From the NCBI GenBank assembly GCA_916610825.1, contig OU744452.1:12814110-12878109 (forward strand): a DNA stretch of 64,000 bases. Direction: 5' to 3'. The notes below the pieces were generated by a model. The model saw only the letters and a list, made by a program, of their open reading frames with translations, was not told the origin of the DNA and did no database searches. Within the stretch, counting starts at the first letter, position 1. Every line of letters begins with the position of its first letter. Position numbers and translations under genes: made by a program. This document shows, piece by piece, positions 5,369 through 63,780 of this stretch. The stretch comes from Haliclystus octoradiatus (taxonomy: Eukaryota > Cnidaria > Staurozoa > Stauromedusae > Haliclystidae).

Positions 5369-5420
5369 ATTGTGCCTGGTGCCATGAAATGACGTAATAG
5401 AAGTTCATTCACAAATCAAA

Positions 5421-25564: not shown

Positions 25565-25640
25565 ATGGTTTCTAATTGTTTATTATTGGCTGCTCATATT
25601 TATATATTTTGTAATATTTTATGCTGCAATGCTCAGTCAG
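25565..25640 (+). CDS. Giant protein exon 1: signal peptide
   Basis: ATG at 25,565 opens MVSNCLLLAAHIYIFCNI and ends CCNAQS before CAG|GTAATT. This is a classic signal peptide with a hydrophobic core and a small residue (Ala24) at the likely cleavage point. The start has G at -3 and G at +4. The exon ends with one leftover base (G), exactly the phase required by the next acceptor (|GT), so Gly is made across the junction. The 5.8-kb distance is the only weak point. It is inferred, without transcript evidence. Confidence 0.7.
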
Positions 25641-28600: not shown

Positions 28601-31600
28601 ATTCACGATGTTAAAATGTGAAAATGCCATGAAAAGGCAATGAAATTTCACGATTTTGTCATGGTTTTGGTGTCAGAGAAAGAGAAAGAGAGGGAATGAC
28701 ATAATTAAAGTTATTTTAACTGGATAGAGCCAATTTCTAATATCATTAACATATTTTCAGTCAACTAAAAGTATTGCAGCAAATTCAAAATATTATTGAT
28801 TACCCATCGGTGGTCAGTTACCGATGGTTTTTTTTTCATATATCTCATTATTCCTGAACGCAAGTCTTTAATATTAATAGCCACGACATTTTAATAGGCT
28901 GAATCATTTCCAGAATCATTTTTTGCGAAATTCTATTTTTGTCAGTAATCATATAGCATTGACAAGAGAATGAATCAAAATCTTTTTAATCATCGAAAAA
29001 ATCATTTCATCAGTTGATACCCTTAACTCTAACATTGGATTATGAATGTTATCTATAACTACAGACGATTTTATTACGTCTGAAAACTCAAGTCCCTTAT
29101 CAGTTATACAAACAAGAATTTACATGATGAAAAATTCTGATTTGAAAACAGCATCAAGATTATTACAAACGTTATCTATACATATCAAGAGTTGATATCC
29201 GTTTGTCAAACTCCTCAAACATCTGATGTATAACAAACAGCTTTACAAAATGAAAGAATTTTTGAACTGTAATAGACAACATTAATTACAACCAATGACT
29301 TAATGGATCATTCGTAATGACTGAAATGAAACTCCATCACGATGGTTTCATGAATTTGTTTGAGTATGTACTGTTTGGAGTTATAACTTCAGCTTCACGA
29401 TTTAAGTTAAACGGTTCTTCTTTTGATATCTCATAGCAATTTGATTTATGACGTAGCTACCATAGCTACAATTTCTAAATGGAAAAGGAATTTGTGGACT
29501 ACATCTCTTACGCTTATTCTTTGCAGTCAAAGACTCCATTTTTCAAGTTCTTGTCCGCAGTTAGAAAAGTAAACAATACTTTTATTTCGATTACTATTGC
29601 ATCTATTAACACAACAATTAATAAGTTAAAAGCCTATGTTTGTTTTCACTAATAAAAGTTGTATTTTTTCGCGCGCTTCGCTTAAAACAAGAAACCCGGT
29701 TCCGAAAAAACACGAAGGGCGTCCGAAAAATCACATGAATGGCATCTGTCCAATAAGAGACGATAGCGGCACATGAAAGCGTGTCCCAACTCTTGTAAAT
29801 TGATGGCTCTGGAGGGGCACGTCTGATTTACGGAAAACGGAAAGAAATTTACGGAAAAATATTAAACGAGGTCCATTGTATTCTGCTTTCCTGAAACGAG
29901 TGTACCGCATAGGAATATATCGTCGTGAGCGGTGGATTTAGATGCAGTGAATATAACATTTTGCAATGTTGTCTTTGATTTTTATCCTTTTGTCTATTTT
30001 GTCTTACCATCTGTTACTGTTTACTTTTTCGTACTTTTTATTCGTGGAATTAATCATCGAAAGAAAAGAATACACAATTGTAAATATTTTTAATTAAATA
30101 CGAATGGCGATATGAACAGTGTTTGCAAGCACGTGGTTTGCAAGTAGCTGACAAGAGTTTGACAAACTAAACATTTTACACTTTTTTTTACCTTCCACAA
30201 TCAGAGTTTTAACAAAAGCTTTCGATTTGATGTTATTATTATGGCGAAGAATTATTGCAGTTACCATTTGCATCCGTTTGCGAAGGATACCGCCTTCATC
30301 TTGCCATTGCTTAGCCCAATTGTTAAGAGATAGTAATGAGAGGAATCGGAACTAAACCTTTTAGTTAATTCAACCATAGAAATCGACAATAATGCAATAT
30401 TACAAAGCAACATGCCAGTGTTAGGTAGGCGAAGGGCCTACATATATATGAAAATAGCTAACGAAGACGACAGTGACACAAATACAAAATACAGTAAATC
30501 AATCAATCAATCAATCAAACAGTTCCATCAATCGATGGTAATAACTACGTAAAAGGCTAGAGGAGTAAATTAAACAGAATATCGACAATGATCGATAATA
30601 TCGAAATGTTATGTCCAATGTCCAAACTTTAAATTCAAAACATCATCGCAAAATAGTTATTGCTATTTTCACTACACCTAAATCCATCGCCCAAAACGAT
30701 GCATTTCCACGCGGTACACTCGTTTACAGGAAAGCAGAATACAATGGACCTCGTTTTATATTTTTCCGAAAATTTCTTTCCGTTTTCCGTAAATCAGACG
30801 TGCCGCTCTGGAGCCATCTATTTATAAGAGTTGGGACATAATTTTACTTTCGCGCGCTTTGTTCAAAGTTTGCGAGCCTGGGTTGGCATGAAAGAAAATG
30901 GCATCCATAAATTACGTGACTGGCATCTTCCCATCTGGAGCGGAGAGCGAAACATGAAATAATATCTCAACTCTTGTAAATAAATGGTTCTGACATCTAC
31001 AACTTCAACATATCGATTATTCCACATAAATGCGCCATAACCATGGTTATTTCCCTTTTAACATTTTTGATATTAGATATTAATTATATATCGAGCTACA
31101 TAAGACATGGATGAAACAAATAAACTAATATAACTAAGCTATTAAACTAATTAAACTAAGATGAACAGTTTAAAAATGAAATCCATTTATTTCTGCTCCT
31201 ATTAACTGAACATGATATGATTGAGTAATTATAAACTGATGATGGTTTTCAATTACTCAGCACGTCAAATCTATATCAAAATACCCTGAAACATATTAAC
31301 ACAAATTGCGTTGTGGCTATCATTATAGTTAGGTTATTTTACTACTTTAAAGAGGTAATTTTTTTTTGCAAAGTATGAATTATATTACTTTTTAAACTTT
31401 TTAATATTTCTTTGCATTTTTCAGGTAATTCTGTGGGAACAGGACAAGCAATTTCCACAAACTCATTGAGCAACAAACAACTTACAAGTTTAAATGGTAA
31501 TGGCACAGCAAGTAATGCACTGCCAAGTTTTCAGTTGGAGAGTAATATATCCCAAACTATTTTCGTATCCATAGTAAAAAACGATTCAAGGATAACAATA

Positions 31601-34600
31601 TATCCTTCTTTTAGTGCTTTTCCAAATAATGTGTCTACCGATGAGAGGACATCTAGTTTATCAATGAGCTCTCCTACAAATGCAATTTCATCTACAATAG
31701 AGATTGAGGATGGAATTATCACGAATAATGGTGGGATAACAAACGTGTTAAAGTCGGAAATGCTTCAAAGTTCATTTCTCAGCAAAGTGCAAATAAATCA
31801 AACATTACACTCTGACGATGAAATACTTCCAGAAGTATCAACTATTAATGGTCCCAAATTTTCGGATATTTCATCACTTGCCAATGTATTACCATCCTCA
31901 TCCATGCCGAGTTTCAAAATCACAGCTAACTCAATACCTGAAATTAATTCTGCCTTCAATGTTATAGAAGGATTAGCTCAGACTTCTCTTTCATCTGCAA
32001 TCTCCATTGGAAAGTCCAGTGTAAATACTGCAACTATTGAAATTCTTTCCAGTTTTGAAACTAACCAATTGTCTGCGACATTATTACGAGGAACTGTGGA
32101 ACGTACAGTTACTACAACCTATTACACAGTAGAATCAAATGCAACTCTTCTCTCAATGCCGACCACTCAAAACACATTCCTCCATTCTACAACAATCAAC
32201 ACAGCAACACAAATGTTTATTCCTTTCTATTCAGACATATCGGACAGTTCATATATCGATGAGTCAACTTTAAAAAAAAAATACGAAAGTTATCCAACTT
32301 CAGATACGATATCAATAAATACAACACTATTCAGTTTACGCAATACATTGAATTCACAAAAAATGAATACGGATAATTTCTTTGACATCTCTTCTTCATT
32401 TAGTAGCTTGGAAATTTCAAGTAAAAAGTCATCAGAAGAATTTAAAAATTCAACTGCATACCCATCCTCGGACAACTACCTCAACAATTACGCACCAACT
32501 GAAAGTTCTATATCATCGATAGACATATCTTTAAGCGCTAACATGCCTGCAATTGCAATTACTGCTTTATCTGAAGGAAATGCATCTATTGTACAATCAT
32601 CATTTACGTTGACTCCATTGGTTATTCCAAAAATGAGTAGCTTGCATTCATCATTTAATGGCAGTGAAACATTGAAGACTGTATCATCAATAGACACATC
32701 TTTTAACGCAAGTATGTCTGCAATTGCTTCTACTGCTGTATCTGAAAGAAATGGATCTATTGTGCAATCATCATTTACGTTGACTCCATTGGTTATTCCA
32801 ACAATGAGTAGCTTGTATTCATCATTTAATGGCAGTGAAATCTTGGAGGCTGTATCATCAATAGACACATCTTTTTACGCAAGTATGCCTGCAATTGCAT
32901 CTACTGCAGTATCTAGAAGAAATGGATCTATTGTACTATCATTATCTACGTTGACTCCATTGGTTATTCCAACAATGAGTAGCTTGTATTCATCATTTAA
33001 TGGCAGTGAAACATTGGAGACTGTATCATCAATAGACACATCTTTTAACGCAAGTATGTCTGCAATTGCATCTACTGCAGTATCTGAAAGAAATGGATCT
33101 ATTGTACTATCATTATCTACGTTGACTCCATTGGTTATTCCAACAATGAGTAGCTTGTATTCATCATTTAATGGCAGTGAAACATTGGAGACTGTATCAT
33201 CAATAGACACATCTTATAACGCTAGTGTGCCTGCAATTGCATCTACTGCAGCATCTCAAAGAAATGGGTCTATTGTACAATCATTATCTACGTTGACTCC
33301 ATTGGTTATTCCAACAATGAGTAGCTTGTATTCATCATTTAATGGCAGTGAAACATTGGAGACTGTATCATCAATAGACACATCTTTTAACGCAAGTTTT
33401 CCTGCAATTGCATCTACTGCTGTATCTGAAAGAAATGGATCTATTGTACAATCATCATTTACGTTGACTCCATTGGTTATTCCAACAATGAGTAGCTTGT
33501 ATTCATCATTTAATGGCAGTGAAACATTGGAGACTGTATCATCAATAGACACATCTTATAACGCTAGTGTGCCTGCAATTGCATCTACTGCAGCATCTCA
33601 AAGAAATGGGTCTATTGTACAATCATTATCTACGTTGACTCCATTGGTTATTCCAACAATGAGTAGCTTGTATTCATCATTTAATGGCAGTGAAACATTG
33701 GAGACTGTATCATCAATAGACACATCTTATAACGCAAGTGTGCCTGCAGTTGCATCTACTGCAGTATCTGAAAGAAATGGATCTATTGTACAATCATCAT
33801 TTACGTTGACTCCATTGGTTATTCCATTAATGAGTAGCTTGTATTCATCATTTAATGGCAGTGAAACATTGGAGACTGTATCATCAATAGACACATCTTT
33901 TAACGCAAGTATGCCTGCAATTGCATCTACTACAGTATCTGAAAGAAATGGATCTATTGTACAATCATCATTTACGTTGACTCCATTGGTTATTCCAACA
34001 ATGAGTAGCTTTTATTCATCATTTAATGGCAGTGAAACATTGGAGACTGTATCATCAATAGACACATCTTTTAACGCAAGTATGCCTGCAATTGCATCTA
34101 CTGCAGTATCTGAAAGAAATGGATATATTGTGCAATCATCATTTACGTTGACTCCATTGGTAATTCCAACAATGAGTAGCTTGTATTCATCATTTAATGG
34201 CAGTGAAACATTGGAGACTGTATCATCAATAGACACATCTTATAACGCAAGCGTGCCTGCAATTGCATCTACTGCTTTATCTGAAAGAAATGGATCTATT
34301 GTACAATCATCATTTACGTTGACTCCATTGGTTATTCCAACAATGAGTAGCTTGTATTCATCATTTAATGGCAGTGAAATCTTGGAGGCTGTATCATCAA
34401 TAGACACATCTTTTTACGCAAGTATGCCTGCAATTGCATCTACTGCAGTATCTGGAAGAAATGGATCTATTGTACTATCATTATCTACGTTGAATCCATT
34501 GGTTAGTCCAACAATGACTAGCTTGTATTCATCATTTAATGTCAGTGAAACATTGGACACTGTATCATCAATATACACATCTTTTAACGCAATTAGGCCT

Positions 34601-37600
34601 GCAGTTGAATCTACTGCAGTATCTGAAAGAATTGGATCTATTGTACTATCATTATCTACGTTGACTCCATTGGTTATTCCAACAATGAGTAGCTTGTATT
34701 CATCATTTAATGGCAGTGAAACATTGGAGACTGTATCATCAATAGACACATCTTTTAACGCAAGTATGCCTGCAATTGCATCTACTGCTGTATCTGAAAG
34801 AAATGGATATATTGTGCAATCATCATTTACGTTGACTCCATTGGTAATTCCAACAATGAGTAGCTTGTATTCATCATTTAATGGCAGTGAAACATTGGAG
34901 ATTGTATCATTAATAGACACATCTTATAACGCAAGCGTGCCTGCAATCGCATCTACTGCTGTATCTGAAAGAAATGGATCTATTGTACAATCATCATTTA
35001 CGTTGACTCCATTGGTTATTCCAACAATGAGTAGCTTGTATTCATCATTTAATGGCAGTGAAATCTTGGAGGCTGTATCATCAATAGACACATCTTTTTA
35101 CGCAAGTATGCCTGCAATTGCATCTACTGCAGTATCTGGAAGAAATGGATCTATTGTACTATCATTATCTACGTTGAATCCATTGGTTAGTCCAACAATG
35201 ACTAGCTTGTATTCATCATTTAATGTCAGTGAAACATTGGACACTGTATCATCAATATACACATCTTTTAACGCAATTAGTCCTGCAGTTGAATCTACTG
35301 CAGTATCTGAAAGAAATGGATCTATTGTACTATCACTATCTACGTCGACTCCATTGGTTATTCCAACAATGAGTAGCTTGTATTCATCATTTAATGGCAG
35401 TGAAACATTGGAGACTGTATCATCAATAGACACATCTTTTAACGCAAGTTTTCCTGCAATTGCATCTACTGCAGTATCTCAAAGAAATGGGTCTATTGTA
35501 CAATCATTATCTACGTTGACTCCATTGGTTATTCCAACAATGAGTAGCTTGTATTCATCATTTAGTGGCAGTGAAACATTGGAGACTGTATCATCAATAG
35601 ACACATCTTATAACGCAAGTATGCCTGCAATTGCATCTACTGCTGTGTCTGAAAGAAATGGATCTATTGTACAATCATCATTTACATTGACTCCATTGGT
35701 TATTCCAACAATGAGTAGCTTGTATTCATCATTTAATGGCAGTGAAACATTTAAGATTGTATCACCAATAAACACATCTTTTAACGCAAGTATTCCTGCA
35801 ATTGCATCTACTGCAGCATCTCAAAGAAATGGGTCTATTGTACAATCATTATCTACGTTGACTCCATTGGTTATTCCAACAATGAGTAGCTTGTATTCAT
35901 CATTTAATGGCAGTGAAACATTGGAGACTGTATCATCAATAGACACATCTTTTAACGCAAGTATGCCTGCAGTTGCATCTACTGCAGTATCTGAAAGAAA
36001 TGGATCTATTGTACAATCATCATTTACGTTGACTCCATTGGTTATTCCAACAATGAGTAGCTTGTATTCATCATTTACTGGCAGTGAAACATTGGAGACT
36101 GTATCATCAATAGACACATCTTTTAACGCAAGTAATCCTGCAATTGCATCTACTGCAGTATCTGAAAGAAATGGATCTATTGTACAATCATCATTTACGT
36201 TGACTCCATTGGTTATTCCAAAAATGAGTAGCTTGTATTCATCATTTAATGGCAGTGAAACATTGGAGACTGTATCATCAATAGACACATCTTTTAACGC
36301 AATTATGCCTGCAGTTGCATCTACTGCAGTATCTGAAAGAAATGGATCTATTGTACAATCATTTACGTTGACTCCATTGGTTATTCCAAAAATGAGTAGC
36401 TTGTATTCATTATTTAATGGCAGTGAAACATTGGAGACTGTATCATCAATAGACACATCTTTTATCGCAATTATGCCTGCAGTTGCATCTACTGCAGTAT
36501 CTGAAAGAAATGGATCTATTGTACTATCTTTATCTACGTTGACTCCATTGGTTATTCCAACAATGAGTAGCTTGTATTCATCATTTAATGGCAGTGAAAC
36601 ATTGGAGACCGTATCATCAATAGACACATCTTTTAACGCAAGTATGCCTGCAATTGCATCTACTGCTGTATCTGAAAGAAATGGATCTATTGTGCAATCA
36701 TCATTTACGTTGACTCCATTGGTTATTCCAACAATGAGTAGCTTGTATTCATCATTTAATGGCAGTGAAACATTGGAGACCGTATCATCAATAGACACAT
36801 CTTTTAACGCAAGTATGCCTGCAGTTGCATCTACTGCAGTATCTGAAAGAAATGGATCTATTGTACAATCATCATTTACGTTGACTCCATTGGTTATTCC
36901 AACAATGAGTAGCTTTTATTCATCATTTAATGGCAGTGAAACATTGGAGACTGTATCATCAATAGACACATCTTTTAACGCAAGTATGCCTGCAATTGCA
37001 TCTACTGCTGTATCTGAAAGAAATGGATCTATTGTGCAATCATCATTTACGTTGACTCCATTGGTAATTCCAACAATGAGTAGCTTGTATTCATCATTTA
37101 ATGGCAGTGAAACATTGGAGACTGTATCATCAATAGACACATCTTATAACGCTAGTGTGCCTGCAATTGCATCTACTGCTGTATCTGAAAGAAATGGATC
37201 TATTGTACAATCATCATTTACGTTGACTCCATTGGTTATTCCAACAATGAGTAGCTTGTATTCATCATTTAATGGCAGTGAAACATTGGAGACCTTATCA
37301 TCAATAGACACATCTTTTAACGCAAGTATGCCTGCAATTGCATCTACTGCAGTATCTGAAAGAAATGGATCTATTGTACAATCATCTTTTACGTTGACTT
37401 CATTGGTTATTCCAACAATGAGTAGCTTGTATTCATCATTTGATGGCAGTGAAACATTGGAGACTGTATCATCAATAGACACATCTTATAACGCAAGTAT
37501 GCCTGCAGTTGCATCTACTGCAGTATCTGAAAGAAATGGATCTATCGTACAATCATCATTTACGTTGACTCCATTGGTTATTCCAACAATGAGTAGCTTG

Positions 37601-40600
37601 TATTCATCATTTAATGGCAGTGAAACATTGGAGGCTGTATCATCAATAGACACATCTTATAACGCAAGTGTGCCTGCAATTGCATCTACTGCTGTATCTG
37701 AAAGAAATGGATCTATTGTACAATCATCATTTACGTTGACTCCATTGGTTATTCCAACAATGAGTAGCTTGTATTCATCATTTAATGGCAGTGAAACATT
37801 GGAGGCTGTATCATCAATAGACACATCTTATAACGCAAGTGTGCCTGCAATTGCATCTACTGCTGTATCTGAAAGAAATGGATCTATTGTACAATCATCA
37901 TTTACGTTGACTCCATTGGTTATTCCAACAATGAGTAGCTTGTATTCATCATTTAATGGCAGTGAAACATTGGAGACTGTATCATCAATAGACACATCTT
38001 TTAACGCAATTATGCCTGCAGTTGCATCTACTGCAGTATCTGAAAGAAATGGATCTATTGTACTATCTTTATCTATGTTGACTCCATTGGTTATTCCAAC
38101 AATGAGTAGCTTGTATTCATCATTTAATGGCAGTGAAACATTGGAGACCGTATCATCAATAGACACATCTTTTAACGCAAGTATGCCTGCAGTTGCATCT
38201 ACTGCAGTATCTGAAAGAAATGGATCTATTGTACTATCTTTATCTATGTTGACTCCATTGGTTATTCCAACAATGAGTAGCTTGTATTCATCATTTAATG
38301 GCAGTGAAACATTGGAGACCGTATCATCAATAGACACATCTTTTAACGCAAGTAATCCTGCAATTGCATCTACTGCAGTATCTGAAAGAAATGGATCTAT
38401 TGTACAATCATCATTTACGTTGACTCCATTGGTTATTCCAAAAATGAGTAGCTTGTATTCATCATTTAATGGCAGTGAAACATTGGAGACTGTATCATCA
38501 ATAGACACATCTTTTAACGCAATTATGCCTGCAGTTGCATCTACTGCAGTATCTGAAAGAAATGGATCTATTGTACAATCATTTACGTTGACTCCATTGG
38601 TTATTCCAAAAATGAGTAGCTTGTATTCATTATTTAATGGCAGTGAAACATTGGAGACTGTATCATCAATAGACACATCTTATAACGCAAGTATGCCTGC
38701 AATTGCATCTACTACAGTATCTGAAAGAAATGGATCTATTGTACAATCATCATTTACGTTGACTCCATTGGTTATTCCAACAATGAGTAGCTTTTATTCA
38801 TCATTTAATGGCAGTGAAACATTGGAGACTGTATCATCAATAGACACATCTTTTAACGCAAGTATGCCTGCAATTGCATCTACTGCAGTATCTGAAAGAA
38901 ATGGATATATTGTGCAATCATCATTTACGTTGACTCCATTGGTAATTCCAACAATGAGTAGCTTGTATTCATCATTTAATGGCAGTGAAACATTGGAGAC
39001 TGTATCATCAATAGACACATCTTATAACGCAAGCGTGCCTGCAATTGCATCTACTGCTTTATCTGAAAGAAATGGATCTATTGTACAATCATCATTTACG
39101 TTGACTCCATTGGTTATTCCAACAATGAGTAGCTTGTATTCATCATTTAATGGCAGTGAAATCTTGGAGGCTGTATCATCAATAGACACATCTTTTTACG
39201 CAAGTATGCCTGCAATTGCATCTACTGCAGTATCTGGAAGAAATGGATCTATTGTACTATCATTATCTACGTTGAATCCATTGGTTAGTCCAACAATGAC
39301 TATCTTGTATTCATCATTTAATGTCAGTGAAACATTGGACACTGTATCATCAATATACACATCTTTTAACGCAATTAGGCCTGCAGTTGAATCTACTGCA
39401 GTATCTGAAAGAATTGGATCTATTGTACTATCATTATCTACGTTGACTCCATTGGTTATTCCAACAATGAGTAGCTTGTATTCATCATTTAATGGCAGTG
39501 AAACATTGGAGACTGTATCATCAATAGACACATCTTTTAACGCAAGTATGCCTGCAATTGCATCTACTGCTGTATCTGAAAGAAATGGATATATTGTGCA
39601 ATCATCATTTACGTTGACTCCATTGGTAATTCCAACAATGAGTAGCTTGTATTCATCATTTAATGGCAGTGAAACATTGGAGATTGTATCATTAATAGAC
39701 ACATCTTATAACGCAAGCGTGCCTGCAATCGCATCTACTGCTGTATCTGAAAGAAATGGATCTATTGTACAATCATCATTTACGTTGACTCCATTGGTTA
39801 TTCCAACAATGAGTAGCTTGTATTCATCATTTAATGGCAGTGAAATCTTGGAGGCTGTATCATCAATAGACACATCTTTTTACGCAAGTATGCCTGCAAT
39901 TGCATCTACTGCAGTATCTGGAAGAAATGGATCTATTGTACTATCATTATCTACGTTGAATCCATTGGTTAGTCCAACAATGACTAGCTTGTATTCATCA
40001 TTTAATGTCAGTGAAACATTGGACACTGTATCATCAATATACACATCTTTTAACGCAATTAGTCCTGCAGTTGAATCTACTGCAGTATCTGAAAGAAATG
40101 GATCTATTGTACTATCACTATCTACGTCGACTCCATTGGTTATTCCAACAATGAGTAGCTTGTATTCATCATTTAATGGCAGTGAAACATTGGAGACTGT
40201 ATCATCAATAGACACATCTTTTAACGCAAGTTTTCCTGCAATTGCATCTACTGCAGTATCTCAAAGAAATGGGTCTATTGTACAATCATTATCTACGTTG
40301 ACTCCATTGGTTATTCCAACAATGAGTAGCTTGTATTCATCATTTAGTGGCAGTGAAACATTGGAGACTGTATCATCAATAGACACATCTTATAACGCAA
40401 GTATGCCTGCAATTGCATCTACTGCTGTGTCTGAAAGAAATGGATCTATTGTACAATCATCATTTACATTGACTCCATTGGTTATTCCAACAATGAGTAG
40501 CTTGTATTCATCATTTAATGGCAGTGAAACATTTAAGATTGTATCACCAATAAACACATCTTTTAACGCAAGTATTCCTGCAATTGCATCTACTGCAGCA

Positions 40601-43600
40601 TCTCAAAGAAATGGGTCTATTGTACAATCATTATCTACGTTGACTCCATTGGTTATTCCAACAATGAGTAGCTTGTATTCATCATTTAATGGCAGTGAAA
40701 CATTGGAGACTGTATCATCAATAGACACATCTTTTAACGCAAGTATGCCTGCAGTTGCATCTACTGCAGTATCTGAAAGAAATGGATCTATTGTACAATC
40801 ATCATTTACGTTGACTCCATTGGTTATTCCATTAATGAGTAGCTTGTATTCATCATTTAATGGCAGTGAAACATTGGAGACTGTATCATCAATAGACACA
40901 TCTTTTAACGCAAGTAATCCTGCAATTGCATCTACTGCAGTATCTGAAAGAAATGGATCTATTGTACAATCATCATTTACGTTGACTCCATTGGTTATTC
41001 CAAAAATGAGTAGCTTGTATTCATCATTTAATGGCAGTGAAACATTGGAGACTGTATCATCAATAGACACATCTTTTAACGCAAGTTTTCCTGCAATTGC
41101 ATCTACTGCAGTATCTCAAAGAAATGGGTCTATTGTACAATCATTATCTACGTTGACTCCATTGGTTATTCCAACAATGAGTAGCTTGTATTCATCATTT
41201 AGTGGCAGTGAAACATTGGAGACTGTATCATCAATAGACACATCTTATAACGCAAGTATGCCTGCAATTGCATCTACTGCTGTGTCTGAAAGAAATGGAT
41301 CTATTGTACAATCATCATTTACATTGACTCCATTGGTTATTCCAACAATGAGTAGCTTGTATTCATCATTTAATGGCAGTGAAACATTTAAGATTGTATC
41401 ACCAATAAACACATCTTTTAACGCAAGTATTCCTGCAATTGCATCTACTGCAGCATCTCAAAGAAATGGGTCTATTGTACAATCATTATCTACGTTGACT
41501 CCATTGGTTATTCCAACAATGAGTAGCTTGTATTCATCATTTAATGGCAGTGAAACATTGGAGACTGTATCATCAATAGACACATCTTTTAACGCAAGTA
41601 TGCCTGCAGTTGCATCTACTGCAGTATCTGAAAGAAATGGATCTATTGTACAATCATCATTTACGTTGACTCCATTGGTTATTCCATTAATGAGTAGCTT
41701 GTATTCATCATTTAATGGCAGTGAAACATTGGAGACTGTATCATCAATAGACACATCTTTTAACGCAAGTAATCCTGCAATTGCATCTACTGCAGTATCT
41801 GAAAGAAATGGATCTATTGTACAATCATCATTTACGTTGACTCCATTGGTTATTCCAAAAATGAGTAGCTTGTATTCATCATTTAATGGCAGTGAAACAT
41901 TGGAGACTGTATCATCAATAGACACATCTTTTAACGCAATTATGCCTGCAGTTGCATCTACTGCAGTATCTGAAAGAAATGGATCTATTGTACAATCATT
42001 TACGTTGACTCCATTGGTTATTCCAAAAATGAGTAGCTTGTATTCATTATTTAATGGCAGTGAAACATTGGAGACTGTATCATCAATAGACACATCTTTT
42101 ATCGCAATTATGCCTGCAGTTGCATCTACTGCAGTATCTGAAAGAAATGGATCTATTGTACTATCTTTATCTACGTTGACTCCATTGGTTATTCCAACAA
42201 TGAGTAGCTTGTATTCATCATTTAATGGCAGTGAAACATTGGAGACCGTATCATCAATAGACACATCTTTTAACGCAAGTATGCCTGCAATTGCATCTAC
42301 TGCTGTATCTGAAAGAAATGGATCTATTGTGCAATCATCATTTACGTTGACTCCATTGGTTATTCCAACAATGAGTAGCTTGTATTCATCATTTAATGGC
42401 AGTGAAACATTGGAGACCGTATCATCAATAGACACATCTTTTAACGCAAGTATGCCTGCAGTTGCATCTACTGCAGTATCTGAAAGAAATGGATCTATTG
42501 TACAATCATCATTTACGTTGACTCCATTGGTTATTCCAACAATGAGTAGCTTTTATTCATCATTTAATGGCAGTGAAACATTGGAGACTGTATCATCAAT
42601 AGACACATCTTTTAACGCAAGTATGCCTGCAATTGCATCTACTGCTGTATCTGAAAGAAATGGATCTATTGTGCAATCATCATTTACGTTGACTCCATTG
42701 GTAATTCCAACAATGAGTAGCTTGTATTCATCATTTAATGGCAGTGAAACATTGGAGACTGTATCATCAATAGACACATCTTATAACGCTAGTGTGCCTG
42801 CAATTGCATCTACTGCTGTATCTGAAAGAAATGGATCTATTGTACAATCATCATTTACGTTGACTCCATTGGTTATTCCAACAATGAGTAGCTTGTATTC
42901 ATCATTTAATGGCAGTGAAACATTGGAGACCTTATCATCAATAGACACATCTTTTAACGCAAGTATGCCTGCAATTGCATCTACTGCAGTATCTGAAAGA
43001 AATGGATCTATTGTACAATCATCTTTTACGTTGACTTCATTGGTTATTCCAACAATGAGTAGCTTGTATTCATCATTTGATGGCAGTGAAACATTGGAGA
43101 CTGTATCATCAATAGACACATCTTATAACGCAAGTATGCCTGCAGTTGCATCTACTGCAGTATCTGAAAGAAATGGATCTATCGTACAATCATCATTTAC
43201 GTTGACTCCATTGGTTATTCCAACAATGAGTAGCTTGTATTCATCATTTAATGGCAGTGAAACATTGGAGGCTGTATCATCAATAGACACATCTTATAAC
43301 GCAAGTGTGCCTGCAATTGCATCTACTGCTGTATCTGAAAGAAATGGATCTATTGTACAATCATCATTTACGTTGACTCCATTGGTTATTCCAACAATGA
43401 GTAGCTTGTATTCATCATTTAATGGCAGTGAAACATTGGAGGCTGTATCATCAATAGACACATCTTATAACGCAAGTGTGCCTGCAATTGCATCTACTGC
43501 TGTATCTGAAAGAAATGGATCTATTGTACAATCATCATTTACGTTGACTCCATTGGTTATTCCAACAATGAGTAGCTTGTATTCATCATTTAATGGCAGT

Positions 43601-46600: not shown

Positions 46601-49600
46601 GGATCTATTGTACAATTATCATTTACGTTGACTCCATTGGTTATTCCAACAATGAGTAGCTTGTATTCATCATTTAATGGCAGTGAAACATTGGAGACTG
46701 TATCATCAATAGACACATCTTTTAACGCAAGTATGCCTGCAGTTGCATCTACTCCAGTATCTGAAAGAAATGGATCTATTGTACAATCATCATTTACGTT
46801 GACTCCATTGGTAATTCCAACAATGAGTAGCTTGTATTCATCATTTAATGGCAGTGAAACATTGGAGACTGTATCATCAATAGACACATCTTTTAACGCA
46901 AGTGTGCCTGCAATTGCATCTACTGCAGCATCTGAAAGAAATGGGTCTATTGTACAATCATTATCTACGTTGACTCCATTGGTTATTCCAACAATGAGTA
47001 GCTTGTATTCATCTTTTAATGGCAGTGAAACATTGGAGACTGTATCATCAATAGACACATCTTTTAACGCAAGTATGCCTGCAGTTGCATCTACTGCAGT
47101 ATCTGAAGGAAATGGATCTATTGTACAATCATCATTTACGTTGACTCCATTGGTTATTCCAACAATGAGTAGCTTGTATTCATCATTTAATGGCAGTGAA
47201 ACATTGGAGACTGTATCATCAACAGACACATCTTTTGACGCAAGTATGCCTGCAATTGCATCTACTGCTGTATCTGAAAGAAATGGATCTATTGTACAAT
47301 CATCATTTACGTTGACTCCATTGGTTATTCCAACAATGAGTAGCTTGTATTCATCATTTAATGGCAGTGAAACATTGGAGACTGTATCATCAATAGACAC
47401 ATCTTTTAACGCAAGTATGCCTGCAGTTGCATCTACTGCAGTATCTGAAAGAAATGGATCTATTGTACAATCATCTTTTACGTTGACTTCATTGGTTATT
47501 CCAACAATGAGTAGCTTGTATTCATCATTTGTTGGCAGTGAAACATTGGAGACTGTATCATCAATAGACACATCTTATAACGCAAGTATGCCTGCAGTTG
47601 CATCTACTGCAGTATCTGAAAGAAATGGATCTATTGTACAATCATCATTTACGTTGACTCCATTGGTTATTCCAACAATGAGTAGCTTGTATTCATCATT
47701 TAATGGCAGTGAAACATTGGAGACTGTATCATCAATAGACACATCTTTTAACGCAAGTATGCCTGCAGTTGCATCTACTGCAGTATCTGAAAGAAATGGA
47801 TCTATTGTACAATCATCATTTACGTTGACTCCATTGGTAATTCCAACAATGAGTAGCTTGTATTCATCATTTAATGGCAGTGAAACATTGGAGACTGTAT
47901 CATCAATAGACACATCTTATAACGCAAGTGTGCCTGCAATTGCATCTACTGCTGTATCTGAAAGAAATGGATCTATTGTACAATCATCATTTACGTTGAC
48001 TCAATTCGTTATTCCAACAATGAGTAGCTTGTATTCATCATTTAATGGCAGTGAAACATTGGAGACTGTATCATCAATAGACACATCTTATAACGCAAGT
48101 GTGCCTGCAATTGCATCTACTGCTGTATCTGAAAGAAATGGATCTATTGTACAATCATCATTTACGTTGACTCAATTCGTTATTCCAACAATGAGTAGCT
48201 TGTATTCATCATTTAATGGCAGTGAAACATTGGAGACTGTATCATCAATAGACACATCTTATAACGCAAGTATGCCTGCAATTGCATCTACTGCTGTATC
48301 TGAAATAAATGGATCTATTGTACAATCATCATTTACGTTGACTCCATTGGTTATTCCAACAATGAGTAGCTTGTATTCATCATTTACTTTCAGTGAAACA
48401 TTGGAGACTGTATCATCAATAGACACATCTTATAACGCAAGTGTGCCTGCAATTGCATCTACTGCTGTATCTGAAAGAAATGGATCTATTGTACAATCAT
48501 CATTTACGTTGACTTCATTGGTTATTCCAACATTGAGTAGCTTGTATTCATCATTTAATGGCAGTGAAACATTGGAGACTGTATCATCAATAGACACATC
48601 TTTTAACGCAAGTATGCCTGCAGTTGCATCTACTGCAGTATCTGAAAGAAATGGATCTATTGTACAATCATCATTTACGTTGACTCCATTGGTTATTCCA
48701 ACAATGAGTAGCTTGTATTCATCATTTAATGGCAGTGAAACATTGGAGACTGTATCATCAATAGACACATCTTTTAACGCAAGTATGCCTGCAGTTGCAT
48801 CTACTGCAGTATCTGAAAGAAATGGATCTATTGTACAATCATCATTTACGTTGACTCCATTGGTAATTCCAACAATGAGTAGCTTGTATTCATCATTTAA
48901 TGGCAGTGAAACATTGGAGACTGTATCATCAATAGACACATCTTTTAACGCAAGTATGCCTGCAATTGCATCTACTGCTGTATCTGAAAGAAATGGATCT
49001 ATTGTACAATCATCATTTACGTTGACTCCATTGGTTATTCCAACAATGAGTAGCTTTTATTCATCATTTAATGGCAGTGAAACATTGGAGACTGTATCAT
49101 CAATAGACACATCTTTTAACGCAAGTAATCCTGCAATTGCATCTACTGCAGTATCTGAAAGAAATGGATCTATTGTACAATCATCATTTACGTTGACTCC
49201 ATTGGTTATTCCAACAATGAGTAGCTTGTATTCATCATTTAATGGCAGTGAAACATCGGAGACTGTATCATCAATAGACACATCTTATAACGCAAGTATG
49301 CCTGCAATTGCATCTACTGCAGCATCTGAAAGAAATGGGTCTATTGTACAATCATTATCTACGTTGACTCCATTGGTTATTCCAACAATGAGTAGCTTGT
49401 ATTCATCTTTTAATGGCAGTGAAACATTGGAGACTGTATCATCAATAGACACATCTTTTAACGCAAGTAATCCTGCAGTTGCATCTACTGCAGTATCTGA
49501 AAGAAATGGATCTATTGTACAATCATCATTTACGTTGACTCCATTGGTTATTCCAACAATGAGTAGCTTGTATTCATCATTTAATGGCAGTGAAACATTG

Positions 49601-52600
49601 GAGACTGTATCATCAATAGACACATCTTTTAACGCAAGTATGCCTGCAATTGCATCTACTGCTGTATCTGAAAGAAATGGATCTATTGTACAATCATCAT
49701 TTACGTTGACTCCATTGGTTATTCCAGCAATGAGTAGCTTTTATTCATCATTTAATGGCAGTGAAACATTGGAGACTGTATCATCAATAGACACATCTTT
49801 TAACGCAAGTAATCCTGCAATTGCATCTACTGCAGTATCTGAAAGAAATGGATCTATTGTACAATCATCATTTACGTTGACTCCATTGGTTATTCCAACA
49901 ATGAGTAGCTTGTATTCATCATTTAATGGCAGTGAAACATCGGAGACTGTATCATCAATAGACACATCTTATAACGCAAGTATGCCTGCAATTGCATCTA
50001 CTGCAGCATCTGAAAGAAATGGGTCTATTGTACAATCATTATCTACGTTGACTCCATTGGTTATTCCAACAATGAGTAGCTTGCATTCATCTTTTAATGG
50101 CAGTGAAACATTGGAGACTGTATCATCAATAGACACATCTTTTAACGCAAGTAATCCTGCAGTTGCATCTACTGCAGTATCTGAAAGAAATGGATCTATT
50201 GTACAATCATCATTTACGTTGACTCCATTGGTTATTCCAACAATGAGTAGCTTGTATTCATCATTTAATGGCAGTGAAACATTGGAGACTGTATCATCAA
50301 TAGACACATCTTTTAACGCAAGTATGCCTGCAGTTGCATCTACTGCAGTATCTGAAAGAAATGGATCTATTGTACAATCATCATTTACGTTGACTCCATT
50401 GGTAATTCCAACAATGAGTAGCTTGTATTCATCATTTAATGGCAGTGAAACATTGGAGACGGTATCATCAATAGACACATCCTTTAACGCAAGTGTGCCT
50501 GCAATTGCATCTACTGCTGTATCTGAAAGAAATGGATCTATTGTACAATCATCATTTACGTTGACTCCATTGGTTATTCCAACAATGAGTAGCTTGTATT
50601 CATCATTTACTTTCAGTGAAACATTGGAGACTGTATCATCAATAGACACATCTTATAACGCAAGTGTGCCTGCAATTGCATCTACTGCAGTATCTGAAAG
50701 AAATGGATCTATTGTACAATCATCATTTACGTTGACTCCATTGGTTATTCCAACATTGAGTAGCTTGTATTCATCATTTAATGGCAGTGAAACATTGGAG
50801 ACTGTATCATCAATATACACATCTTTTAACACAATTAGGCCTGCAGTTGCATCTACTGCAGTATCTGAAAGAAATGGATCTATTGTACAATCATCATTTA
50901 CGTTGACTGCATTGGTTATTCCAACAATGAGTAGCTTGTATTCATCATTTAATGGCAGTGAAACATTGGAGACTGTATCATCAATAGACACATCTTTTAA
51001 CGCAAGTGTGCCTGCAGTTGCATCTACTGCAGTATCTGAAAGAAATGGATCTATTGTACAATCATCATTTACGTTGACTCCATTGGTAATTCCAACAATG
51101 AGTAGCTTGTATTCATCATTTAATGGCAGTGAAACATTGGAGACTGTATCATCAATAGACGCATCTTATAACGCAAGTGTGCCTGCAATTGCATCTACTG
51201 CTGTATCTGAAAGAAATGGATCTATTGTAAAATCATCATTTACATTGACTCCATTGGTTATTCCAACAATGAGTAGCTTGTATTCATCATTTAATGGCAG
51301 TGAAACATTGGAGACTGTATCATCAATAGACACATCTTTTAACGCAAGTATGCCTGCAGTTGCATCTACTGCAGTATCTGAAAGAAATGGATCTATTGTA
51401 CAATCATCATTTACGTTGACTCCATTGGTAATTCCAACAATGAGTAGCTTGTATTCATCATTTGATGGCAGTGAAACATTGGAGACTGTATCATCAATAG
51501 ACACATCTTATAACGCAAGTGTGCCTGCATTTGCATCTACTGCTGTATCTGAAAGAAATGGATCTATTGTACAATCATCATTTACGTTGACTCCATTGGT
51601 TATTCCAACAATGAGTAGCTTGTATTCATCATTTAATGTCAGTGAAACATTGGAGACTGTATTATCAATAGACACATCTTATAACGCAATTGTGCCTGCA
51701 ATTGCATCTACTGCTGTATCTGAAAGAAATGGATCTATTGTACAATCATCATTTACGTTGACCCCATTGGTTATTCCAACAATGAGTAGCTTGTATTCAT
51801 CATTTAATGGCAGTGAAACATTGGAGACTGTATCATCAATTGACACATCTTTTAACGCAAGTATGCCTGCAATTGCATCTACTGCAGTTTCTGCAGGAAA
51901 TGGATCTATTGTACAATCATCATTTAAGTTGACTCCATTGGTTATTCCAACAATGAGTAGCTTGTACTCATCATTTAATGGCAGTGAAACATTGGAGACT
52001 GTATCATCAATAGACACATCTTTTAACGCAAGTGTGCCTGCAATTGCATCTACTGCTGTATCTGAAAGAAATGGATCTATTGTACAATCATCATTTACGT
52101 TGACTCCATTGGTTATTCCAACAATGAGTAGCTTGTACTCATCATTTAATGGCAGTGAAACATTGGAGACTATATCATCAATAGACACATCTTTTAACGC
52201 AAGTGTGCCTGCAATTGCATCTACTGCTGTATCTGAAAGAAATGGATCTATTGTACAATCATCATTTACGTTGACTCCATTGGTTATTCCAGCAATGAGT
52301 AGCTTGTATTCATCATTTAATGGCAGTGAAACATTGGAGACTGTATCATCAATAGACACATCTTTTAACGCAAGTAATCCTGCAATTGCATCTACTGCAG
52401 TATCTGAAAGAAATGGATCTATTGTACAATCATCATTTACGTTGACTCCATTGGTTATTCCAACAATGAGTAGCTTGTATTCATCATTTAATGGCAGTGA
52501 AACATCGGAGACTGTATCATCAATAGACACATCTTATAACGCAAGTATGCCTGCAATTGCATCTACTGCAGCATCTGAAAGAAATGGGTCTATTGTACAA

Positions 52601-55600
52601 TCATTATCTACGTTGACTCCATTGGTTATTCCAACAATGAGTAGCTTGTATTCATCTTTTAATGGCAGTGAAACATTGGAGACTGTATCATCAATAGACA
52701 CATCTTTTAACGCAAGTAATCCTGCAATTGCATCTACTGCAGTATCTGAAAGAAATGGATCTATTGTACAATCATCATTTACGTTGACTCCATTGGTTAT
52801 TCCAACAATGAGTAGCTTGTATTCATCATTTAATGGCAGTGAAACATTGGAGACTGTATCATCAATAGACACATCTTATAATGCAAGTATGCCTGCAATT
52901 GCATCTACTGCAGTATCTGAAAGAAATGGATCTATTGTACAATCATCATTTACGTTGACTCCATTGGTAATTCCAACAATGAGTAGCTTGTATTCATCAT
53001 TTAATGGCAGTGAAACATTGGAGACTGTATCATCAATAGACACATCTTATAACGCAAGTGTGCCTGCAATTGCATCTACTGCAGTATCTGAAAGAAATGG
53101 ATCTATTGTACAATCATCATTTATGTTGACTCCATTGGTTATTCCAACAATGAGTAGCTTGTACTCATCATTTAATGGCAGTGAAACATTGGAGACTGTA
53201 TCATCAATTGACACATCTTTTAACGCAAGTATGCCTGCAATTGCATCTACTGCAGTTTCTGCAGGAAATGGATCTATTGTACAATCATCATTTAAGTTGA
53301 CTCCATTGGTTATTCCAACAATGAGTAGCTTGTACTCATCATTTAATGGCAGTGAAACATTGGAGACTGTATCATCAATAGACACATCTTTTAACGCAAG
53401 TGTGCCTGCAATTGCATCTACTGCTGTATCTGAAAGAAATGGATCTATTGTACAATCATCATTTACGTTGACTCCATTGGTTATTCCAACAATGAGTAGC
53501 TTGTACTCATCATTTAATGGCAGTGAAACATTGGAGACTATATCATCAATAGACACATCTTTTAACGCAAGTGTGCCTGCAATTGCATCTACTGCTGTAT
53601 CTGAAAGAAATGGATCTATTGTACAATCATCATTTACGTTGACTCCATTGGTTATTCCAGCAATGAGTAGCTTGTATTCATCATTTAATGGCAGTGAAAC
53701 ATTGGAGACTGTATCATCAATAGACACATCTTTTAACGCAAGTAATCCTGCAATTGCATCTACTGCAGTATCTGAAAGAAATGGATCTATTGTACAATCA
53801 TCATTTACGTTGACTCCATTGGTTATTCCAACAATGAGTAGCTTGTATTCATCATTTAATGGCAGTGAAACATCGGAGACTGTATCATCAATAGACACAT
53901 CTTATAACGCAAGTATGCCTGCAATTGCATCTACTGCAGCATCTGAAAGAAATGGGTCTATTGTACAATCATTATCTACGTTGACTCCATTGGTTATTCC
54001 AACAATGAGTAGCTTGTATTCATCTTTTAATGGCAGTGAAACATTGGAGACTGTATCATCAATAGACACATCTTTTAACGCAAGTAATCCTGCAATTGCA
54101 TCTACTGCAGTATCTGAAAGAAATGGATCTATTGTACAATCATCATTTACGTTGACTCCATTGGTTATTCCAACAATGAGTAGCTTGTATTCATCATTTA
54201 ATGGCAGTGAAACATTGGAGACTGTATCATCAATAGACACATCTTATAATGCAAGTATGCCTGCAATTGCATCTACTGCAGTATCTGAAAGAAATGGATC
54301 TATTGTACAATCATCATTTACGTTGACTCCATTGGTAATTCCAACAATGAGTAGCTTGTATTCATCATTTAATGGCAGTGAAACATTGGAGACTGTATCA
54401 TCAATAGACACATCTTATAACGCAAGTGTGCCTGCAATTGCATCTACTGCAGTATCTGAAAGAAATGGATCTATTGTACAATCATCATTTATGTTGACTC
54501 CATTGGTTATTCCAACAATGAGTAGCTTGTACTCATCATTTAATGGCAGTGAAACATTGGAGACTGTATCATCAATAGACACATCTTATAACTCAAGTGT
54601 GCCTGCAATTGCATCTACTACTGTATTTGAAAGAAATGGATCTATTGTAGAGTCATCATTTAAGTTGACTCCATTGGTTATTCCAACAATGAGTAACTTG
54701 TACTCATTATTTAATGGCAGTGAAACATTGGAGACTGTATCATCAATAGACACATCTAATAACGCAAGTGTGCCTGCAATTGCATCTACTGCTGTATCTG
54801 AAAGAAATGGATCTATTGTACAATCATCATTTACGTTGACTCCATTGGTTATTCCAACAATGAGTAGCTTGTATTCATCATTTAATGGCAGTGAAACATT
54901 GGAGACTGTATCATCAATAGACGCATCTTATAACGCAAGTGTGCCTGCAATTGCATCTACTGCTGTATTTGAAAGAAATGGATCTATTGTACAATCATCA
55001 TTTAAGTTGACTCCATTGGTTATTCCAACAATGAGTAGCTTGTACTCATCATTTAATGGCAGTGAAACATTGGAGACTGTATCATCAATAGACACATCTT
55101 ATAACGCAAGTGTGCCTGCAATTGCATCTACTGCTGTATTTGAAAGAAATGGATCTATTGTACAATCATCATTTAAGTTGACTCCATTGGGTATTCCAAC
55201 AATGAGTAGCTTGTACTCATCATTTAATGGCAGTGAAACATTGGAGACTGTATCATCAATAGACACATCTTTTAACGCAAGTGTGCATGCAATTGCATCT
55301 ACTGCTGTATCTGAAAGAAATGGATCTATTGTACAATCATCATTTACGTTGACTCCATTGGTTATTCCAACAATGAGTAGCTTGTATTCATCATTTACTG
55401 GCAGTGAAACATTGGAGACTGTATTATCAATAGACACATCTTATAACGCAAGTATGCCTGCAATTGCATCTACTGCAGTATCTGAAAGAAATGGATCTAT
55501 TGTACAATCATTATCTATGTTGACTCCATTGGTTATTCCAACAATAAGTAGCTTGTATTCATCATTTAATGGCAGTGAAACATTGGACACCGTATTATCA

Positions 55601-58600
55601 ATAGAAACTTCTTTCAACGCAAGTATGCCTGCAATTGCATCTACTGCTGTATCTGAAAGAAATGGATCTATTGTTCAATCATCATTTACGTTGACTCCAT
55701 TGGTTGTTCCAACAATGGGTAGCTTGTATTCATCATTTAATGCTAGTGGAACACCGGGGATGATATCAATAGTTCTTCTAACATCTTCCTATCCAACATC
55801 ATATGATGGAACTCCTACTTTTGTCTTAACCCTGTCGCAGCTTGATTCTAGTTTGTATTCTAGTTTGTCTTCGGATAGATCCAATCTTTTTACAAGCAGG
55901 AATATTTCAAATTCTGAAATAAATACCTCGTGGACTTCAGTTATTGACCCTTCTTCTCCAGAAGTTTCATCATCGTCTGTCTCAATTTCCATTATCCCTT
56001 CGGTATTTCCACCATTGTCTGCTATTATTGCAATGGAATTACGCATCCAGCCTTCTTTGTCAGTTTCATCTGATTCATTTGTTATTGAACTGGAAAGTAA
56101 AATTTTAGCAGCTTTTTCTGCTGGGTTGTTAAAGCCAAGAGTAGTGAGACAGCTGGATTCTAGTTCGGAGGAAGAATACAACAACACATTTGCGTTGAAG
56201 ATGTACCACTCCACAAGAACTCGTAAGAGGAGAGCAACACAGAATATTGCTGTGCAGGTGAGCTCAATACACATCTGCTTGCAATTAGAAACTTTGCACT
56301 ATAATGGATAATTTGTGTTTCCTTTTCTAGTTATCATGCGCAATCATTTTCTCTTTTTCATTGGCCTTCTTCATGAATACCAGCAGTTTTACCCACGTTG
56401 CTGGGTTAATTTTGGCCAAATAAAACCTTTCTTTAGTGACTTTGTCTGTTTATCAAGACAAACAAGTAATACTTGTAGAATATATTCTAAATGGAATTGT
56501 AGAACACGTGAACTTTAATATCAAACAATAGAAACGCGACGCAACAGAGGTGTCGTAGCATGACGTATCCAAAAAGCAAAATAAAATCAGTGCGTGCAAA
56601 ATGACATCTCCTTTCGATACGCAAAGCAAAGGGAAACTTTGAAAAAATACAAAGCTTGTTAGGTATAACTATTTGCAATTATCTATCAGATGATATGCTA
56701 TTTGATTCATTTGGTTTTGAAATGGCAGAGAACATCGCAAAAATCCACCGCAATCACACATACGTAAAGACATCCGCACTTATTGGTATATATTTTATTT
56801 TATTTCTTATTGCAGATTATCGAACTAATAAGAAACAGCGCTGATCCACAACTTGCTTCAGTGAACTTTCTTCTATTAAATGGTAGTCAACCAATTGATG
56901 CCTCCACAGCATCTGCTGTTTTTAATAGATTGATGTTGTGGGAACTAGATACATTTCTTGGTTATCCGGTAAGACAATCACAGTTGTTTATAACTTTGTA
57001 TTCTTATATTGTATTGCATGTTGATGTCAAATATACCAAAACGCATATTATTTCAATTTCTTGCTCTGATCTTTAGATCTTTGATCAGTGCGATAACACT
57101 GTATAAAATTGTAGTAAAAACTTGCTAGCTTCTCTCTCATTACATCTATCCAAATTTCTCATTATTTGTTTGCTTTTTTCCTGAAACTCTTTATGGCGAT
57201 AATCAACATTTTGGGGCATCATGATTTCTTGACAATAGATCATCTAAGAATAAAAATCGCAAAGCGAGACTTTTAATTCGTTTCTAAGGAATGTAGTGCA
57301 AATACTAGAAGGAATTATTTGTACGGATTATTAATCTTTGCAAGTTTATTTGAATTTTGTACATTTGAAAGAAAAAATATTTTCACGTCATAGCTCTGCA
57401 TGATAGCTTGTGTAATAATCAGATATAACTCAGCAAAAGTCAATATAACCATGTTTTATATATATACTTCCAATTGTCATATTACATAACTATCATTTAT
57501 ATACTATTTTATATTGAAAGATAGCAACAAAAATCTCAAACTACAAAAAATACAACTTTTTTGTCGCTACTTTTCACTCTGAAATGTTTTACAAAGAAAC
57601 TTTTGGTCAATATACTATTTTCGTTTAGAACATATCGAGGATCTGCTACGATTTATTCTTGCAATTTGATTGGTTAACGCCAATAACGCCATTTCACGAT
57701 AGCCGAGCTTGACCCCGTCGATTTCAAGAAATTTATGAATTACAAAACAACCGATAATTATTTAAATATGGCATTATAAACTGGCAAGTAATAAAAAGTA
57801 AAAAGCAAATACAGTGAATATCTGAGGAGTCATATACAATTTCATTGAGTTACTGTTTCATGCAGTTTCTCAATTGTTCAAAATAAATCAAATGGCTCTG
57901 GGTGAAATATCTGAGCTAGTAAACAGAAATTTTTTAAGTGTATAGAAATATTTTGCAAAAAATTAACAATTCAAAAACAATTTGCCCAAATTTTACAGTA
58001 TTGATGATTGTGAAAACATAAGATAACATAACTTCATTTCTTTAATACATCCCCTCATCCTTTTATGGCCAATTTTTGCAAGTTCCTAGATATGAGTATA
58101 AAAACTAAATTGCTGGCGTAGAAAAATAAGCTTTTCGTAAACTACCAAAACCATAACATAGGGCTGCACAAAATCAACCGCTAAAATTTCAAATAATTAA
58201 ACCATTTCTCCAAATGAAGGTTAGCAACATTTTAAAAAGTTGTCATAAATTCAATAATCTGCTCTTTTAAACAGGCAATTAGCAAACATTTAGTCAATAA
58301 ATCTATCATTGTTTCATTTCTTTCTTCACGTTCACGGCTTCTTACGAAATTCTTCAAATTATAGGTAAGAAACATTTTCTTTCCATTTTAAGTTTTCCAA
58401 TTCAGTTTTCCATAAAGAATAACACGCATAAAAAATAGAAAATATTGTTCAAAGATAAGAATCCATGACTATGTATATGTAAGAAAACGATGTTAAGCAT
58501 CCATTCTTTTAATATCAAGAAGATAAATATAAATTTCTCGATATCAATTTTTCCTCGAAGCTTTTAGTTGAATTAAAAAAAGGCAAGCGTGCAGCTCTCG

Positions 58601-62815: not shown

Positions 62816-62821
62816 AATAAA
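62816..62821 (+). promoter_or_regulatory. Candidate polyadenylation signal (giant gene)
   Basis: AATAAA lies 212 bases after the TAA at 62,602. If exon 4 is terminal this would end the transcript. If AAG|GTATAA is a donor, the signal would be intronic. Confidence 0.4.
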
Positions 62822-62882
62822 CCTCATAACCACAAAGAGAAAAATAACACTTATTAAAATCCTAAAAATCCATTTGTGGGTT

Positions 62883-63674: not shown

Positions 63675-63780
63675 TTCTGGTCTATCTCATATAAATCGTG
63701 CGAGGGAACAATTGAATCATCAATCGACACATTTTTAAATACTATCATGTCAGCTATAGCAACTAAAACTGTGTCTTAAG
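63675..63780 (+). pseudogene. Decayed single copy of the giant protein's 57-aa repeat
   Basis: The frame ending at TAA (63,777-63,779) reads SYKSCEGTIESSIDTFLNTI and then MSAIATKTVS. It aligns with the canonical unit's SSIDTSFNASMPAIASTAVS at most positions, including the SSIDT and AIA cores. At the DNA level TCATCAATCGACACATTTTT parallels TCATCAATAGACACATCTTT. It lies 1.1 kb past the last exon and ends in a stop codon. It may be a relic of the array, or part of a neighbouring paralogue that continues beyond the window. Confidence 0.65.

Follow-up and report, generated by a model that had tools for sequence, protein, structure and literature searches.

We analysed a window of 64,000 nucleotides (nt) from the staurozoan Haliclystus octoradiatus, corresponding to positions 12,814,110–12,878,109 of contig 8 (C8) of assembly jrHalOcto1.1, which we place with high confidence on chromosome 7. 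The window appears to contain one giant coding exon on the plus strand (31,425–56,257, 24,833 nt; positions without a contig prefix are those of the window), which carries a long tandem repeat. In our reading, to which we assign a probability of about 0.62, this exon encodes the ectodomain of a giant type I membrane glycoprotein that works like a transmembrane mucin. The anchor encoded by its C-terminal exons resembles the animal family KIAA1549, which makes the gene look like an extreme form of a known kind of protein and not like something without relatives.

According to the assembly figures in PMC9975415, the H. octoradiatus genome comprises 262 Mb in 33 scaffolds, with 21.35 Mb for chromosome 7, and is based on 68-fold HiFi reads. 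At this coverage the number of repeat units in the array should be near right. The genome-wide searches described below covered 261,861,806 bases in 33 contigs. In the first 10,000 bases of contig 33 (18,316 bases), frames for COX1, COX2, ATP6, COX3, NAD2 and NAD5 and a polymerase-like frame were recognized by eye, and tRNA-Met and a tRNA with the anticodon tca were the only tRNAs of this stretch; linear mitochondrial genomes of medusozoans have this layout.

The giant exon and its repeat array

The first-pass annotation of this DNA had described a single stop-free exon bounded by consensus splice sites, and both points were borne out. The exon lies in a stop-to-stop frame of 8,310 codons (31,379–56,311, plus strand), and translation of 31,424–56,257 gives 8,278 residues with zero stops. 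It is preceded by the acceptor tttctttgcatttttcag, with 13 pyrimidines in 16 positions, and followed by the donor CAG|GTGAGC, which reaches 12.6 bits (donor scores here and below come from a position table of our own). Within the array the other five frames contain 423, 689, 829, 75 and 774 stops. The unique sequences on either side of the array are open as well: among the three forward frames, to which these counts refer, the coding frame has no stop at the N end compared with 18 and 26 in the other two, and none at the C end compared with 14 and 10. On the minus strand, the best frame across the array has 75 stops, and a frame of 169 codons is open over the C end (55,789–56,298).

The array extends from 32,486 to 55,738 on the plus strand and comprises 136 units of 57 amino acids (aa; 171 nt) with 368 N-glycosylation sequons. 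Segmentation gave 132 units of 57 aa, three of 56 and one of 59, and Tandem Repeats Finder reported 135.9 copies of 171 nt (32,511–55,753) with 95% matches and 0% indels. The first-pass annotation had given the same unit length and a count of 135. The four remaining units depart from the standard length by −3, −3, −3 and +6 nt, and the frame is kept in each of them. Since the three units of 56 aa (units 23, 36 and 56) are identical, the length changes reflect at least two events, not four. Ser and Thr together make up 35.8% of the 8,278 residues (about 2,960), in agreement with the earlier statement of over a third; the sequons of the exon number 380, fewer than the approximately 400 claimed.

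Among the 136 units there are 76 distinct forms at the protein level and 82 at the DNA level, and for 92 units another unit with exactly the same DNA exists. Compared in pairs, the 132 units of 57 aa are on average 89% identical in protein and 95% in DNA. Units at the edges are more divergent, the first differing from its nearest relative at 30 of 171 bases and the last two at 8 and 6. Exact duplicate blocks of 2,276 nt (spacing 5,637), 1,528 nt (4,782) and 1,412 nt (1,368) show recent block exchange. We read the array as homogenised by unequal exchange between units, which is the usual picture. Its present length would have arisen by the same process and is probably still changing, and the frame would survive such exchange because the unit consists of 57 codons.

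To estimate how often the observed single-site changes would create stops, 2,000 simulations were performed. They predicted 6.4 stop-making changes, whereas all units are free of stops (P 0.0005 for zero such changes). There are two variants of a single base each that would be stop-making on their own; both occur exclusively in codons with further changes (P 0.0185 for at most two). Stop-making changes are thus avoided in the array.

Searches with the repeat found no relative in the collections used. In the genome of H. octoradiatus the unit gave 136 matches, all in the frame of the giant exon, and none elsewhere at E 0.001. With two joined units the best Pfam match had an E-value of 0.019, below the cut-off; the best NCBIfam match (E 0.15) was far under its cut-off, and the single PDB sequence match up to E 10 (E 0.39) was not credible. 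The check proposed in the first-pass annotation, a search of the 57-aa unit against protein and metagenome collections, yielded no relative at E ≤ 0.01: for the C-terminus and for three joined units, 2,474 and 3,532 candidates, respectively, were retrieved from the predicted proteins of public genomes and metagenomes, none at this threshold, in a collection that may hold few animals and by a search that reaches only relatives sharing 5-residue words. The lack of described relatives applies to the repeat within these collections and does not extend to the C-terminal module, which matches KIAA1549.

The proposed gene, its KIAA1549 match and its likeness to mucins

From the arrangement of open frames and splice sites we propose a gene of four exons, namely a signal-peptide exon, the giant exon, an exon of 153 nt and a membrane-span exon with the stop codon. 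The predicted product has 8,409 residues (about 875 kDa) and appears to be a type I single-pass surface protein. Putative exon 1 (25,565–25,640, plus strand, as for all exons of this gene) contains an ATG, a predicted signal peptide, MVSNCLLLAAHIYIFCNILCCNAQS, and the phase-1 donor CAG|GTAATT. It is the better of the two candidates that remained when 509 upstream ATG frames were filtered for hydrophobicity at the start and for a donor in phase 1; a stricter first pass over these frames had listed no candidate. Its join to the giant exon reads QS-G-NSVGTG. The giant exon is entered in phase 1 and left in phase 0. It begins with a unique Ser/Thr-rich part of the ectodomain of 353–354 aa (31,425–32,485), encoded in the sole open forward frame, which matches no Pfam family at E ≤ 0.01 and whose first 357 residues have no match elsewhere in the genome. 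The unique C end (55,739–56,257) would form the start of a membrane-proximal domain; it matches no Pfam family by itself, but its addition to exons 3 and 4 increases their KIAA1549 score. It includes a basic site, RTRKRR (56,216–56,233), which we take to be furin-like and at which cleavage may occur. Exon 3 (56,816–56,968, 51 aa, IIELIRN...LGYP, phase 0-0) continues the membrane-proximal domain and is flanked by the acceptor ttgcag and the donor CCG|GTAAGA (10.2 bits). Exon 4 (62,437–62,604) encodes the predicted transmembrane helix TLIIILACCSAFILIIIIVIIWCLM (62,494–62,568, hydrophobicity judged by eye) and a short basic tail, KRSKNRKRMKV, and ends with TAA; an alternative donor at this exon is weak (3.35 bits). 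A search for AATAAA or ATTAAA gave a possible polyadenylation signal at 62,816–62,821 and more matches at 62,853 and 63,098. A membrane protein on contig 11 with Ig/FN3-like domains, named by eye, was considered as a paralog and rejected, as its resemblance to exon 4 is limited to the membrane-span stretch.

Downstream of the last exon, at 63,690–63,776, there is a possible degenerate and partial copy of the 57-residue unit (tblastn E 0.10). Its DNA alignment score is 37, compared with a maximum of 32 for 15 shuffled units, and it may be a weak relic of the unit.

The joined C-terminal exons matched the Pfam family KIAA1549 (PF12877, UPF0606) over profile positions 166–292 of 676 with 32.6 bits (E 3.9e-8), and a trimmed piece consisting of the membrane-proximal part and the membrane span reached 34.5 bits (E 1.1e-8); the curated cut-off is 24 bits. 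As the match spans both introns, it supports the exon joins. Several controls were carried out. When the membrane-proximal part was shuffled and fused to the real membrane span, only one of eight shuffles was listed (E up to 1), at 10.1 bits, and the real membrane-proximal part fused to an unrelated membrane span kept 24.3 bits. The membrane-span exon alone gave an unspecific 8.7 bits, and no match resulted when exons 3 and 4 were reversed by hand, inexactly (103 instead of 106 letters). An exon-by-exon search of the genome, with three candidates scored, listed a single KIAA1549 match at C8:11,192,530–11,192,709 (24.2 bits), approximately 1.6 Mb away. The exon at C8:11,192,503–11,192,721 scores 27.9 bits for KIAA1549 and matches no other family. 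The gene at this place is probably the animal's main KIAA1549 gene, and the gene in the window would be a divergent relative.

KIAA1549 is known from brain-tumour fusions, and to our knowledge the function of its ectodomain is unclear. Like KIAA1549 and KIAA1549L, the predicted protein combines a membrane-proximal part and a membrane span that match the profile with a long Ser/Thr-rich ectodomain, but it differs from them in the 136 repeat units, which bring the ectodomain to approximately 8,000 residues, and, in our model, in a tail of about 11 residues. The human KIAA1549 ectodomain is characterized in PMC11292533 as highly disordered, mucin-like and densely O-mannosylated, and the protein as one of a small number of human substrates of the classical O-mannose pathway (POMT1/POMT2). 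That repeat expansion has enlarged the ectodomain of a cnidarian relative to 8,000 residues suggests that proteins of this family are mucin-like cell-surface stalks, and the gene in the window offers a natural length variant for testing such a role.

The predicted protein also resembles SEA-type transmembrane mucins (MUC1, MUC3/17, MUC16 and the cnidarian mucin1-like proteins) in having a candidate signal peptide, a tandem-repeat Ser/Thr ectodomain, a membrane-proximal domain, one membrane span and a short tail. A giant exon is found in MUC16, too; the present one may be longer, if the MUC16 length given in the first-pass annotation holds. In contrast to these mucins, the predicted protein has no Pfam SEA match and no listed EGF family, a low proline content and many N-glycosylation sequons. 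No SEA match (PF01390) was found in the joined C-terminus up to E 1 by the sequence profile. Cys is absent from all 8,278 residues encoded by the giant exon, and its unique N- and C-terminal parts contain none of the VWD or cystine-knot Pfam families of gel-forming mucins. Of the original suggestion of a surface mucin or structural coat, the surface glycoprotein is retained on account of the candidate signal peptide and the membrane span. We consider a surface mucin that is anchored in the membrane and may be shed more likely than a secreted structural coat.

In size the protein is not without precedent. Insect H-fibroin is a repeat protein of equal size; it is a secreted silk that is not known to have a membrane span or to be related in sequence. 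For the caddisfly E. regina, an H-fibroin of 8,386 aa encoded by a gene of 25,250 bp with introns has been obtained from HiFi reads (PMC9693786, whose text gives no exon lengths; the comparison concerns protein size only). The size of the protein proposed here is thus already matched in print. Literature searches returned nothing on KIAA1549 combined with a SEA domain, nothing related on giant exons and mucins and, in titles and the beginnings of abstracts, no work on a staurozoan mucin encoded by such a gene. PMC9080433, one of the papers found on cnidarian and transmembrane mucins, does not name KIAA1549 in its main text.

If the protein works like a transmembrane mucin, its repeat units would be N-glycosylated at up to three sites each and O-glycosylated on Ser and Thr, the latter possibly by analogy to the mannose added by POMT1/POMT2 to human KIAA1549. 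The ectodomain would then stand off the epithelium as a long, glycan-coated and hydrated polymer brush, up to approximately 2 micrometres in length when fully extended by our estimate. The site RTRKRR lies within the KIAA1549-matching stretch, which starts at residue 13 of the trimmed piece, so a cut there could either yield two chains, with the ectodomain still bound to the membrane-proximal domain, or free the ectodomain into the mucus.

Several observations weigh against this reading. Changes within the array comprise 33 silent and 111 replacing ones, with 35.6 silent changes expected, which is a neutral ratio; without an excess of silent changes, selection on individual unit residues is undetectable. 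Sequon positions are barely more conserved than the rest (0.943 compared with 0.933 in the 132 units of 57 aa). A proline content of 5% together with 39% hydrophobic residues (AVILMFYW) is unusual for a mucin domain. Concerning the family match, exons 3 and 4 score 23.3 bits, slightly under the cut-off, when the end of exon 2 is left off, and the membrane-proximal part without the membrane span gives 13.3 bits at another place of the profile (37–112); together with the shuffles and the swap, these values indicate that the match is carried by both parts jointly. The cytoplasmic half of the profile (293–676) was not found in the gene, and for the profile after position 307 or so no exon was listed genome-wide at E ≤ 0.001, nor near the family member at C8:11.19 Mb. 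Finally, a better KIAA1549 membrane-span exon sits elsewhere on the same chromosome, in this very member, and BLASTP between the two membrane-span exons finds no similarity, so that it is the profile that relates them. Taking the open frame, the avoidance of stops and the neutral ratio together, we read the array as a low-constraint array of the mucin type in a working gene.

Alternatives to a mucin-like ectodomain

Instead of an extended brush, the array might form a folded right-handed beta-solenoid rod, which would make the protein a giant glycosylated fibre or adhesin of the surface, held by the same membrane anchor. We regard this as unlikely, but it is a further point against a mucin-like ectodomain that the best AlphaFold2 model of six units is a confident beta-solenoid. 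The pLDDT value increased from 50.7 for three units to 83.5 for this model, and its structural matches are proteins that we take to be beta-helix proteins. Rising confidence with repeat number is true of real solenoids and is also a false behaviour of AlphaFold2 on near-perfect repeats. The five models of six units disagree strongly with each other. We keep the solenoid as a rival. In the structural comparison of the array model no family stands out, a missing match being uninformative in such a case. By our estimate a rod of this kind would be 130–200 nm long. It is distinctly less probable that all elements hold together, such that a KIAA1549-type anchor became the base of a protein that ranks among the longest encoded by a single exon in animals, with 136 near-identical units as a continuous glycosylated beta-solenoid rod of a surface-fibre class that we did not find described, located beside an independent giant-exon mucin.

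Another alternative, which appears improbable, concerns not the fold but the transcript: the giant exon might be alternative, some tissues skipping it or removing it by recursive splicing and thereby making another product. Immediately after its acceptor comes a donor-like CAG|GTAATT (31,422–31,430, 8.6 bits), formed by the acceptor and the first bases of the exon. As this sequence repeats the donor of exon 1, a donor would be restored when exon 1 is spliced, the arrangement seen in recursive splicing. It is the only donor-like site of at least 7 bits inside the giant exon (one of 1,356 GT sites compared with 38 of 1,978 in the flanks of the window, the repeat units not being independent), and the duplication may be due to chance. 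The scarcity of such sites in the exon counts in favour of the main reading. Joining exon 1 (phase 1) to exon 3 (phase 0) would, however, shift the frame, so that a skipped form would lose the membrane part.

Very improbable, finally, is a satellite-like tandem repeat in intronic or intergenic DNA, with an open frame that arose as a side effect of recent amplification: units that are about 95% alike, the neutral ratio of silent to replacing changes and an unrelated 146-bp minisatellite upstream would fit it, but this explanation, like that of a chance open frame, was rejected because both unique ends are open in the frame of the array while the other two forward frames have stops there (with the minus strand also open over the C end), because good splice sites terminate these ends and the C end runs into a family-matching domain across two introns, and because stops are absent and all four odd-length units, arising from at least two events, differ by multiples of three.

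The neighbourhood of the gene

A second giant open frame of 5,712 codons is located outside the window on the minus strand (C8:12,792,075–12,809,210, corresponding to window positions −22034 to −4899). It is built from a 23-residue Ser/Thr/Pro/Val repeat unit, and the whole frame contains 41% Ser and Thr, 11.6% Pro and 5 sequons. Judged by eye, the frame is flanked by an acceptor on its 5' side and by a donor on its 3' side. It includes two SEA stretches with a GSVV motif (48.3 bits, Pfam) and a membrane span, and we read it as a SEA-type transmembrane mucin with a giant exon of its own. Its SEA-membrane module gave no match to KIAA1549 in Pfam. Both genes share a giant tandem-repeat exon, a membrane span and their place in the same cluster, and they differ in the repeat unit and in the SEA domain. 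They are arranged head-to-head and transcribed in opposite directions away from each other, with the neighbour upstream and the giant exons 36 kb apart. We count this neighbour as support for the mucin reading of the gene in the window. Two giant-exon surface proteins in one stretch of 100 kb bear on the repeated origin of mucins via repeat growth, and exons of 17–25 kb bear on the question of how long exons stay clear of splice sites and stops.

The genome-wide SEA search at E ≤ 0.001 gave matches only in this neighbour, which holds the better of the two, and on contig 5. The latter match (C5:7,246,889–7,247,038, minus strand, 28.4 bits) lies in an open frame of 905 codons and marks another candidate for a surface protein.

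Between the two giant genes, an exon of a choline/ethanolamine kinase was found at 5,388–5,981 (Pfam E 8.5e-26). Further downstream, seven single-frame AA15/LPMO-like genes, recognized by eye, extend from 65,645 to approximately 92,232 in window coordinates, six of them on the minus strand. The one that was checked against Pfam matched LPMO_10 (E 4.4e-25), and the cluster is probably a local family of chitin- or cellulose-active enzymes. A continuation of the giant gene into this cluster was considered and rejected, as its members look by eye like separate single-frame genes.

No Rfam family reached its gathering score within the window. The upstream minisatellite consists of 14.6 copies of 146 bp (17,576–19,700) and is followed by a (TTCA)n microsatellite of 57.8 copies (20,960–21,189). 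In the intron before the membrane-span exon there is an inverted repeat (59,886–60,382) with arms of 104 nt that are 91% complementary and 289 nt apart, which looks like a foldback or MITE element.

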